Of a stretch of DNA of 64,000 bases, positions 12,493-29,058 are shown piece after piece. Source of the DNA: Chloroflexota bacterium. Its GTDB lineage: Bacteria > Chloroflexota > Dormibacteria > Dormibacterales > Dormibacteraceae. Positions within the stretch are counted from its first letter, which is position 1; each line of letters begins with the position of its first letter. The position numbers and the translations under genes are program-made. Location: the NCBI GenBank assembly GCA_005882115.1, contig VBEG01000027.1, positions 1-64,000 of the forward strand. The letters are read 5' to 3'. A model generated the notes under the pieces. The model did no database searches. It was not told the origin of the DNA and saw nothing but the letters and a program-made list of their open reading frames with translations.

Positions 12493-12792
12493 ATGCAACT
12501 GTCCAAAAAGTGGGAGGCACTCCGTGTTGTGGGCTCTTCCCACTCAGTCGGCAACGGAACATCGGCCAGTCAATCGACTAGCGAGACGTCCGGAATCCCG
12601 GACCTGCCGGTCACACTGCCGGTGCAGAACATCGGGACCGGCCAGATAGACTTCGCCAACGCGGCAGCCGGCAACAACCTGGATTGGTTGCTGCTGGTCC
12701 TCCTACCGTCGTTGCTCGCGATCTGGCTTTTGATCGCGGCGCGCGGAGCGCAGGCCGCCACCCGCCGGCGAACGAGGAAGGCCCCCGCCTAA
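12493..12792 (+). CDS. Hypothetical single-pass membrane protein
   Basis: I recognise no family in this 99-residue protein. It has a Ser/Thr/Gly-rich N-terminal half, one strong membrane segment (LLLVLLPSLLAIWLLIAARG, about residues 66-85) and a short basic tail (RRRTRK), giving a probable N-out/C-in anchor. ATG 12493 gives the longest form. A GTG at 12529 preceded by GGGAGG about 12 nt upstream is an alternative that shortens it by 12 residues. It lies 49 bp after trxB and 19 bp before the broken aminopeptidase gene. Confidence 0.5.
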   Translation: MQLSKKWEALRVVGSSHSVGNGTSASQSTSETSGIPDLPVTLPVQNIGTGQIDFANAAAGNNLDWLLLVLLPSLLAIWLLIAARGAQAATRRRTRKAPA

Positions 12793-12811
12793 CCTGCCCT
12801 CTCACCTTGAG

Positions 12812-13795
12812 ATGCGGGCGGAGTTTGCCGCGGGGGCGCGGAATGCGGTTCGCGCCTGCCTGAACATCGGATCCCAGGATCGGGTCTGCATCATCCGCGA
12901 CCGCCCACGGACCGAGATCGCCGACGCCATCGCCGAAGAGTCGCGTGCCACGGGTGCAGCCGTGCAGGTGTGGACGATGGAGGATCACCTGCAACGTCCC
13001 GCGACTTCGTTTCCGGCAGCACTCGCAGATGAGATAGCCCGCTTCCACCCGACGGCAAGCTTCTTTATCGGTATCGGACTGAAAGGGGAGCTTGCTTTCC
13101 GCCAGCCCATGCTCCATCTGCTGGCCGATGAGCTGCGCTGCCGGCACGGGCACATGATCGGGATCAACGATCGGGTCATGACCGACGGCATGGCGGCCGA
13201 CGACGAAATTTACAGGGTGACGCGCAAGGTCTACGAGATCGCCCGTCAGGCTCAGCGCATCTCCGTGACAACCGATCTGGTGGCCACGTTCTCCCCTTCG
13301 CTGAAGTGGGTGTCCAGCGATGGGCGCTAGTGGGAGCAGGGCCGCTGGGGCAACCTCCCGGAAGGCGAGACGTTCACGTGCCCAGCCTCGGTCGATGGGG
13401 TGATCGCGGCCGAGGAGATGGGCGACTGGTTCACGGAGAAATACGGGATGCTGTCCCCGGCGGTCCGTTTTGTGATGAAAGCCGGCCGCATCGTCTCCGT
13501 TGAGACGGCTGACACGCACCTGGACGCCGACATTCGCGCCTACCTGGCGCAGGATCCGAATTCCAGCCGGGTTGGTGAGTTTGCGATCGGCACCAACGTG
13601 GGGCTTTCCGAGATCGTAGGCAACTTCTTGCAAGACGAGAAGTTTCCTGGCGTCCATATCGCGTTCGGCGACCCTTATGGCTTCGAGACTGGAGCCGACT
13701 GGGACTGCCCATGGCATGTCGACGTGCTCGCCTCGCACGCGACGATCTCGGTGGACGGACGGAACATCATGGAGTACGGACGCTTCCTCGTCTGA
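12812..13795 (+). pseudogene. M29-type aminopeptidase interrupted by an in-frame TAG
   Basis: Two segments in the same reading frame together encode an M29 (aminopeptidase T-like) metallopeptidase of about 327 residues. The first runs from ATG 12812 to TAG 13328-13330. The second continues without shift as WEQGRWGNLPEGETF and ends at 13795. All recognisable metal-site regions lie after the stop: LPEGE, GEFAIGTNVG, HIAFGDPYG and HVDVLASHATISVDG. The 172-residue product made without readthrough should be inactive. The downstream part shows no further damage and lacks a well-placed start before ATG 13421. A recent nonsense mutation or a sequencing error is more likely than recoding, because TAG ends several other genes here. 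Confidence 0.8.
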
Positions 13796-13896
13796 GCTCG
13801 ATAATTCAGGCTGCTGGGCGGTTGCGCGCGCATGGCGGAGCAGGCTTACCTCTTCGATCTGACCGTGCCTGCGCGAGGAACGGTCTTCGAGCCGGA

Positions 13897-14418
13897 CTAC
13901 CCGTAGTGCGGCGGGTCCTGCCCGGCCGGTTCCACGCCCGCCAGTAGTTTCTTCAGGAGGGAGACCAGGCCAAGCCTGTCGTTCCTGGTGAGTCCCGCCA
14001 GCAACTGACGCTCGGCTGTAGCGTCTGCCGAGACCGCCTGATGGAGAACCTTGCGCCCCGCATCCGTCAGCGAAACCAGCACTCCGCGCCTGTCCGTCGG
14101 GTGTCGGCTTCGCTTGACATAGCCCCTGCGCTCGAGGCGGTCCAGGCGGCTGGTGATTCCGGCAGACGACAACATCAGGCCTTGGAACAGCTGCGTTGGC
14201 GACAGCTTCCGATCGGAGCCGGCGAGGAGAAGAGCGGCGAGGACGCCGACCTCTCCCCGGTTGAGCTTGAATCGCCCAAAGGCTTCCTCCTGGCTCCGAG
14301 CAAGGTGCTGAGCGATTCGCGACAGGCGAGCGGTCACCTGGTAGGGCTCGATCTCTTTCCGGGAGTGACTGCCGGCCAAGCTGTCGAGGAGCGAATCGGT
14401 CCAATCCTGCTGCGCCAC
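13897..14418 (-). CDS. MarR-family transcriptional regulator
   Basis: The 173-residue winged-helix regulator has the MarR core: FKLNRGEVGVLAALLLAG, LSPTQLFQGLMLSSAGITSR with the recognition helix, LDRLERRGYVKRSRHPTDRR for the wing, and VSLTDAGRKVL. The GTG at 14418 is preferred: TATACT ends 7 nt upstream on the minus strand, suggesting a leaderless message, while the longer TTG start at 14484 would run through the probable operator. It is divergent from a COG4315 lipoprotein gene and probably controls both. Confidence 0.88.
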   Translation of the reverse strand: MAQQDWTDSLLDSLAGSHSRKEIEPYQVTARLSRIAQHLARSQEEAFGRFKLNRGEVGVLAALLLAGSDRKLSPTQLFQGLMLSSAGITSRLDRLERRGYVKRSRHPTDRRGVLVSLTDAGRKVLHQAVSADATAERQLLAGLTRNDRLGLVSLLKKLLAGVEPAGQDPPHYG

Positions 14419-14425
14419 AGCAGCA

Positions 14426-14502
14426 AGTATATGGAATAACTCTCTCGTGAGCGAGATTCTTTGGTCAATGTATCTCGCTGGCAAGTATTTTCAAAGGAGA
14501 GG
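14426..14502. promoter_or_regulatory. Divergent marR / lipoprotein control region
   Basis: Plus strand: TTGGTC (14461-14466), a 17-bp spacer, AGTATT (14484-14489), then the Shine-Dalgarno AAAGGAGAGG (14493-14502) before ATG 14511. Minus strand: TATACT (14431-14426) ends 7 nt before the marR GTG. Between them is the inverted repeat AGCGAGAT-N14-ATCTCGCT (14450-14457 and 14472-14479), with a smaller CTCG-N4-CGAG dyad overlapping its left arm. The right arm falls inside the plus-strand promoter spacer, as expected for a MarR operator. Confidence 0.55.
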
Positions 14503-14510
14503 CAACACTC

Positions 14511-15041
14511 ATGCGCTCGAAGATCGTTCTCATAGGAGGCCTTGCCGCCGCGGCGTTGCTCGCCACGGCCTGCGGAGCAGGCACTCCGTACGCGTCGTCG
14601 CCCAGCACGTCACCCAGCCCTTCGCAGAGTGTGGCGCCGGTCGCAGCGTCGCCCACGGCGAACGCAAGCGCCCAGCCGACCGGGACTACCATCGCCGTCG
14701 CGAAGACGCGACTCGGCCGCATCCTCGTCGACTCGAACGGCAGGACGGTGTACCTGTTCCTGGCCGATTCCGGTTCCACCTCGAACTGCAACAGCGCCGC
14801 CTGCGTCCAGGCGTGGCCGCCGGTTCTCACCAAGGGCACCCCTCAAGCAGGGTCAGGCGCGAACGCTGCGCTGCTCGGTACGACAACGCGCAGGGACGGT
14901 AAGACCGAGGTCACCTACGCGGGCCACCCGCTCTACTACTTCGTCTCGGACAAGAAGTCCGGCGACGTCACGGGCCAGAACATCAACGCTTTCGGCGCGC
15001 CCTGGTACGTCGTCTCCCCGTCTGGGATGCAAATTCGCTAG
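14511..15041 (+). CDS. COG4315-type lipoprotein (Yx(F/W/Y)xxD repeats)
   Basis: This 176-residue secreted protein has a lipoprotein signal with lipobox LLATAC (Cys 21). A Ser/Pro/Thr/Ala-rich linker (about residues 25-60) follows, then two copies of the COG4315 repeat: one around GRTVYLFLADSGSTSNCNS with CVQAWPPVL, the other around GHPLYYFVSDKKSGDVTGQ. The family is common in Actinobacteria and soil bacteria; its function is unknown, although redox or stress roles are often suggested. It has a strong Shine-Dalgarno and is probably repressed by the divergent MarR protein. It ends 4 nt into the convergent DUF3048 gene. Confidence 0.88.
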   Translation: MRSKIVLIGGLAAAALLATACGAGTPYASSPSTSPSPSQSVAPVAASPTANASAQPTGTTIAVAKTRLGRILVDSNGRTVYLFLADSGSTSNCNSAACVQAWPPVLTKGTPQAGSGANAALLGTTTRRDGKTEVTYAGHPLYYFVSDKKSGDVTGQNINAFGAPWYVVSPSGMQIR

Positions 15042-28521: not shown

Positions 28522-29058
28522 ATGACCACCCGCAAGCATCCACACGAGCCTCACGAAAGCGAACCGGAGGAGCCCGCGACTGCCCCTCTCGAAAGCAGGC
28601 TGGCGGAGCTCGAGTCGGCGCTCGCCGAAGCGAAGGATCGTCACCTCCGATTGGCCGCCGATTTTGACAACTACAAGAAGCGGATGCGCCAGGAGCAGCT
28701 GGAGACCATCCAGCACGCGTCCGCCGAGCTGATCAACCGGTTGCTCCCGGTGCTCGACGACCTCCACAACGTTCTCGACCACAGACCCAAGGGCATCGAC
28801 GAGTCATGGCTGAAGGGGATCGAGCTCAGCGTGCGCAAGCTCGAGGAGGCGCTCGGCACGCATGGCCTGCAGCCGATTGAGTCGGTCGGCTCCCGGTTCG
28901 ACCCGAAGCTCCACGAGGCGGTGGGGGAGGAGGAGTCCGCCGAGCACCCGGAGGACACAGTCGTCTCGGAGCTGCGGCGCGGCTACCGGCTTCGCGATCG
29001 CGTCGTCAGGCCCGCGCTCGTCAAGGTCGCGCGCGCGCCACAAAATCAAACTGATTAG
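28522..29058 (+). CDS. grpE: Nucleotide exchange factor GrpE
   Basis: This 178-residue protein has the long N-terminal coiled coil (about 25-75, with RLAADFDNYKKRMRQEQ) and the C-terminal beta domain (GLQPIESVGSRFDPKLHEAV, VVSELRRGYRLRDRVVRPA, LVKVA). It releases ADP from DnaK. The acidic, His-rich N-terminal tail is variable in the family. ATG 28522 is preceded by TATCTA 7 nt upstream rather than a Shine-Dalgarno, so it may also have its own leaderless promoter inside the hrcA operon. Confidence 0.96.
   Translation: MTTRKHPHEPHESEPEEPATAPLESRLAELESALAEAKDRHLRLAADFDNYKKRMRQEQLETIQHASAELINRLLPVLDDLHNVLDHRPKGIDESWLKGIELSVRKLEEALGTHGLQPIESVGSRFDPKLHEAVGEEESAEHPEDTVVSELRRGYRLRDRVVRPALVKVARAPQNQTD

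Follow-up and report, generated by a model that had tools for sequence, protein, structure and literature searches.

We conclude that the interrupted gene at 12812-13795 is very probably a pseudogene at an early stage, derived from the gene of a small M29-like metallopeptidase of about 332 residues. The window analysed here is a stretch of 64,000 nucleotides, positions 1-64,000 of its contig, from an assembly of 3.36 Mb that comprises 147 contigs and is 96.5% complete. Three lesions mark the window copy, namely an in-frame TAG, a 3-bp deletion and a 12-bp deletion, and there is no frameshift in its reading frame; taken together, these features look like an ordinary gene early in decay and not like special decoding of a stop codon. 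A single stop in a well-conserved frame of one genome is no evidence of readthrough before relatives and possible deletions have been examined.

A gene interrupted by TAG

The reading frame starts at ATG 12812, is interrupted by TAG at 13328-13330 (plus strand) and is then open in the same frame to TGA 13793-13795, confirming the preliminary description of a frame that is unbroken on either side of the stop, as well as its observation that T is the base directly 3' of the TAG. The first part of the gene (12812-13330, plus strand) consists of 172 codons and the TAG, which is codon 173 of the window reading, such that the product up to the stop has 172 residues; the second part (13331-13795, plus strand) brings the full reading across TAG to 327 residues. 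When X is put in place of the TAG, the whole frame (12812-13795) scores 51.9 bits with the PF02073 profile, whose cut-off is 27; the post-TAG half alone scores 38.4 bits, and the pre-TAG half alone has no match to this profile. A profile search of the PDB found AmpS (1zjc) at E 7.9e-07, a PDB search with the single sequence gave no match, and an NCBIfam search gave no family above cut-off.

Homologs are readily found. A search of 101 genomes, the window's own included, yielded 17 homologs of about full length with 59-79% identity, and among public genome contigs at least 266 relatives were confirmed; the best 80 of these were kept. An internal stop is absent from all 17 family relatives and from the weaker matches listed for the 101 genomes, and likewise from the best alignments of the best 80 of the at least 266 public homologs. 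At the codon occupied by TAG in the window, none of the 17 family relatives has a stop; 15 have Tyr and two have Phe. Because these relatives span both halves in one stop-free frame, and because PF02073 scores higher across the TAG, the two halves belong to one gene, and the continuity reflects homology rather than a chance open frame. No second or compensating M29 copy was found in the own genome, and although 23 stretches of viral contigs matched the search pattern, none encodes a relative. Alignment A1 was made without L013, L015 and L019, and alignment A2 contains 24 of the best 80 public loci; L008 and L009 were trimmed to 323 and 318 residues, respectively, where their frames leave the family, and four other weak or partial same-genus matches, comprising an eroded scrap in G003 and the pieces G011:C12 and G016:C60, were left out together with the distant matches.

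Catalytic residues and fold

What kind of enzyme would the intact gene encode? The catalytic motif of M29 peptidases is E-E-H-Y-H-D, and PMC7023490 describes a Listeria M29 enzyme in which Ala at any one of these six residues abolished activity. By our own assignment, the corresponding residues in the window reading are E186, E256, H282, Y289, H302 and D304, which follow the same order as the M29 motif and are identical in 18 of 18 sequences (the window copy and its 17 relatives). The earlier statement that the metal-site segments after the TAG are undecayed is therefore upheld at all six catalytic residues. Since every one of these residues lies 3' of the TAG, the 172-residue product could not itself be the enzyme.

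The fold was assessed on a model of an intact relative, L082, standing in for the window copy (mean pLDDT 95.2). Foldseek matched this model to the M29 structures 1zjc, 4icr and 2ayi at E 1.5e-19 to 2.2e-18, and its three top matches were chains of 2,5-dihydroxypyridine dioxygenase (7cn3, 7cup) at E 2.4e-20 to 1.4e-19. The gene had previously been called an M29 aminopeptidase. The family portion of that name is supported by the PF02073 profile, the motif order and the fold of L082; the substrate portion is withheld because the dioxygenase fold ranks higher, and for the same reason we name the product 'M29-like', a predicted metallopeptidase whose substrate is not inferred from its family.

Two deletions ahead of the stop

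The gene had also been considered otherwise complete, on the premise that TAG was its sole lesion. This premise fails, as two in-frame deletions at conserved places precede the stop. The first, a 3-bp deletion at 13201-13202 (plus strand), removes one residue that is Tyr in 17 of 17 family relatives; in the best 80 of the at least 266 public homologs the same column holds Tyr 29 times and Phe 51 times, such that the aromatic residue is kept in 80 of 80. The second, a 12-bp deletion at about 13270-13271 (plus strand; the exact site is ambiguous by a few bases), removes four residues (TxxG), the Gly of which is retained by 79 of the same best 80. The alignment columns at both sites are free of gaps in all 17 relatives. 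Additionally, the matched stretch to the stop codon measures 329-333 residues in the 15 relatives with normal-looking ends, as compared with 327 in the window copy. In the L082 model, the residue at the 3-bp deletion starts helix 131-145, and the four residues at the 12-bp deletion form most of a hairpin turn between strands 150-154 and 160-164. As both deletions keep the frame and no frameshift is present, their origin may date from a time when the protein was still in use, and its shortened form may have been functional. Deletions aside, the sense codons of the window copy are undecayed.

Selection on the frame

After the TAG, the eight pairs that involve the window copy have pairwise dN/dS values (NG86) of 0.068-0.145, versus 0.048-0.173 for 28 pairs of siblings; before the TAG, the corresponding ranges are 0.117-0.180 and 0.086-0.335. 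Private differences after the TAG number six changing and three silent in the window copy, and two to seven and two to four, respectively, in seven siblings, L006 being omitted because it nearly duplicates L004. At 0.13, the window copy's end branch falls within the 0.016-0.21 spanned by the other eight rows of its clade, and at columns common to nine other close sequences the window copy has five substitutions plus three gap columns, with 0-11 substitutions in the others. Relaxed selection (dN/dS near 1, frameshifts) was not seen in this test, which has little power at such divergence; its absence is as expected for a recent stop. Given that post-TAG dN/dS matches the low values of the siblings, the stop is recent relative to divergence within the genus, and because dS exceeds 0.8 in every pair involving the window copy, it is not datable. 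The preliminary description had listed several readings of the TAG. Low post-TAG dN/dS, an ordinary end branch and intact catalytic residues together favour one of these, a nonsense mutation of recent date in a frame under constraint, as the best fit, and programmed readthrough finds little support.

Decoding of the stop

Is it nevertheless possible that the TAG is read? If the stop were a short-lived one that near-cognate tRNAs decode at a low level, a trace of full-length enzyme would be made and the second half would stay under selection. We regard this explanation as unlikely. The low post-TAG dN/dS, the intact frame and the six retained catalytic residues are all compatible with it, but low dN/dS mostly reflects the time before the stop arose; the selection measures average over that long period and cannot separate a recent pseudogene from readthrough. 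According to PMC7918605, in-frame stops in bacteria are common and mostly short-lived, and many of the genes that contain them keep dN/dS < 1, so that such stops may act as short-term down-regulation. The window stop would fit the short-lived class; that study, however, focused on stops common to two or more species, whereas none of the 17 relatives here has a stop at this codon.

The decoding machinery also argues against readthrough, and nothing in the surroundings of the codon favours it. RF1 is present in the own genome, above the curated cut-off. The search for a suppressor tRNA(CTA) proposed earlier has now been run, and no anticodon for any stop codon, CTA included, occurs among 44 distinct tRNAs, a set that is incomplete, with no Asn tRNA seen, such that a suppressor could be missed in this draft. 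Fifty-one of 65 tRNA-like matches were examined, the remaining 14 all scoring below 20 bits, and in the partial or sub-threshold matches L077, L078 and L079 no CTA was apparent in alignments read by eye. RNA folds at the TAG do not outscore those of shuffled sequences (z -0.63 after the TAG and +1.02 across it), with z-scores of -0.54 to +0.04 in three relatives. The following T is a weaker point: +4U reduces readthrough in E. coli mainly at UAA, as reported in PMC5289835, and we give it little weight because the stop here is UAG. Finally, the two deletions suggest that a full-length product would be impaired anyway. We infer that no useful readthrough takes place.

Two further candidates were rejected. 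For reassignment of TAG, the grounds are the presence of RF1 and the ordinary genes that end in this codon; 18 of the 41 long ORFs in the window do so, the broken M29 gene included and the GrpE and DXS ORFs among them. A putative second stop-split gene at 28522-29058, in which a TAG is followed by a long open frame, turned out to be GrpE and then DnaJ, two ordinary genes.

An unusual location

The broken gene lies in a block of about 2.2 kb (12793-15037), together with a short scrap, a MarR gene and a Lipoprotein_15 gene, and this block is absent at that place in the same-genus genome G004. On one side the block adjoins a 99-residue ORF (12493-12792, plus strand), upstream of the M29 gene, and on the other a DUF3048 gene. 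A relative of the 99-residue ORF in G004 (46% over 68 columns) sits between the same two flanking genes without the M29 block. In G012, the flanking FNR-like and DUF3048 genes are near each other with no M29 gene between them, and ten other same-genus FNR-like loci, which end before the DUF3048 gene would appear, contain no M29 match. Within the block, the M29 gene is followed by a possible C-terminal scrap of a TAP-like alpha/beta hydrolase (13823-13906, plus strand), a weak match in which 13 of the 27 residues agree (E 3e-4 when compared with 205 bases, and 0.003 for the top alignment when the comparison covers the whole window), by a MarR-family regulator (13897-14484, minus strand) and, divergent from it, by the Lipoprotein_15 gene (PF03640; 14511-15041, plus strand). 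The MarR and Lipoprotein_15 pair occurs in four other same-genus genomes, on contigs different from that of the FNR-like gene.

In G014, G005 and G006, the M29 gene follows a TAP-like hydrolase gene, and in G006 it is followed in turn by a GrpB gene. The location of the M29 gene varies anyway, as neither neighbour was found within the 8-15 kb available for each of G016, G013, G011, G009 and the same-family genome G039. The best hydrolase and GrpB matches in the own genome are on other contigs, and with just 54% and 56% identity they may be different genes from those of the relatives. Insertion of the block in the window lineage would be the simpler reading.

State of the gene across the genus

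Among 16 other same-genus assemblies, a normal-ended gene is present in five (G005, G009, G011, G013 and G016), a gene with an altered C-terminus, having lost its last 9-14 residues, in two (G006 and G014), and an eroded scrap in one. The remaining eight have no M29 match; seven of these are less than 90% complete, the sole exception being G008, which is 95% complete and 2% contaminated. At the level of the genus, one scrap, two altered C-termini and eight assemblies without a match make the gene look dispensable.

The individual remnants differ in kind. In G006 (L009 / L179, G006:C217), about 14 C-terminal residues are lost and the M29 frame enters the GrpB gene in-frame, which may amount to a natural fusion about 554 residues long. 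In G014 (L008, G014:C189), an unrelated run-on frame replaces the last nine or so M29 residues. In G003 (L020:1381-1662), a C-terminal M29 scrap with a broken frame, about 15 residues of which are inverted, lies between the TAP-like hydrolase and GrpB genes. G011, which holds a whole M29 copy on another contig, also carries a fragment of a second copy, comprising 24 C-terminal residues, where a contig ends (G011:C12, L029:1-72).

One genus thus displays intact, C-terminally altered, freshly stopped and displaced, eroded and no-match states, a clean example of ongoing gene loss in a lineage of soil bacteria that draft assemblies have made known.

Proposed course of decay and remaining alternatives

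How might the window copy have reached its present state? The M29 copy lies away from the hydrolase / GrpB setting of several relatives, in a 2.2-kb block whose two flanking genes are adjacent in G004, and two in-frame deletions have removed five residues at conserved places. We propose that the nonsense mutation that cuts the gene at codon 173 is probably later than the deletions. RF1 would end translation at the TAG, leaving a 172-residue N-terminal fragment that lacks the catalytic residues and is presumably inactive.

Three alternatives to this early-stage pseudogene should be weighed alongside low-level readthrough. A base-calling or assembly error at the TAG, which would mean that the codon is really a sense codon and that a slightly shortened enzyme is made, is improbable in our view. 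In its favour, the TAG is a single-base difference in a 147-contig draft and the frame has no other sign of neutral drift. Such an error would leave unexplained two deletions that are seen in no relative examined; these and the unusual location of the gene fit real decay. We put still less trust in a recent regulatory or bet-hedging state, whereby sense variants would coexist with the TAG and basal readthrough would supply a trace of shortened, active M29-like enzyme, keeping the second half selected. Lastly, it is most implausible that the gene gives two working products, an N-terminal domain ending at the TAG and a C-terminal domain restarting at GTG 13400, for although a GTG-started frame of 131 codons exists (13400-13795), this GTG lies 3' of E186 (13367), none of the 17 relatives is split, and a separately translated second half is rejected here as a product that would be without one of the six essential residues.

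Relation to known systems

The closest known systems are the enzymes of peptidase family M29, for example AmpS (1zjc), PepS (4icr) and AmpT (2ayi), which the gene resembles in its PF02073 match, in the order of its EEHYHD residues and in the modelled fold of L082. Solved M29 chains have 397-413 residues compared with about 332 in the subfamily studied here, and, unlike these systems, the window copy is broken. By the fold of the L082 model, 2,5-dihydroxypyridine dioxygenase ranks slightly above the M29 enzymes. With respect to the lesion itself, the nearest counterparts are the genes with in-frame stops described by Belinky et al. 2021 (PMC7918605), with which the window gene shares a single stop in a frame under purifying selection; the cases on which that study focused are stops common to two or more species, whereas here the stop is found in one genome, is accompanied by two deletions and occurs in a gene at an unusual location.
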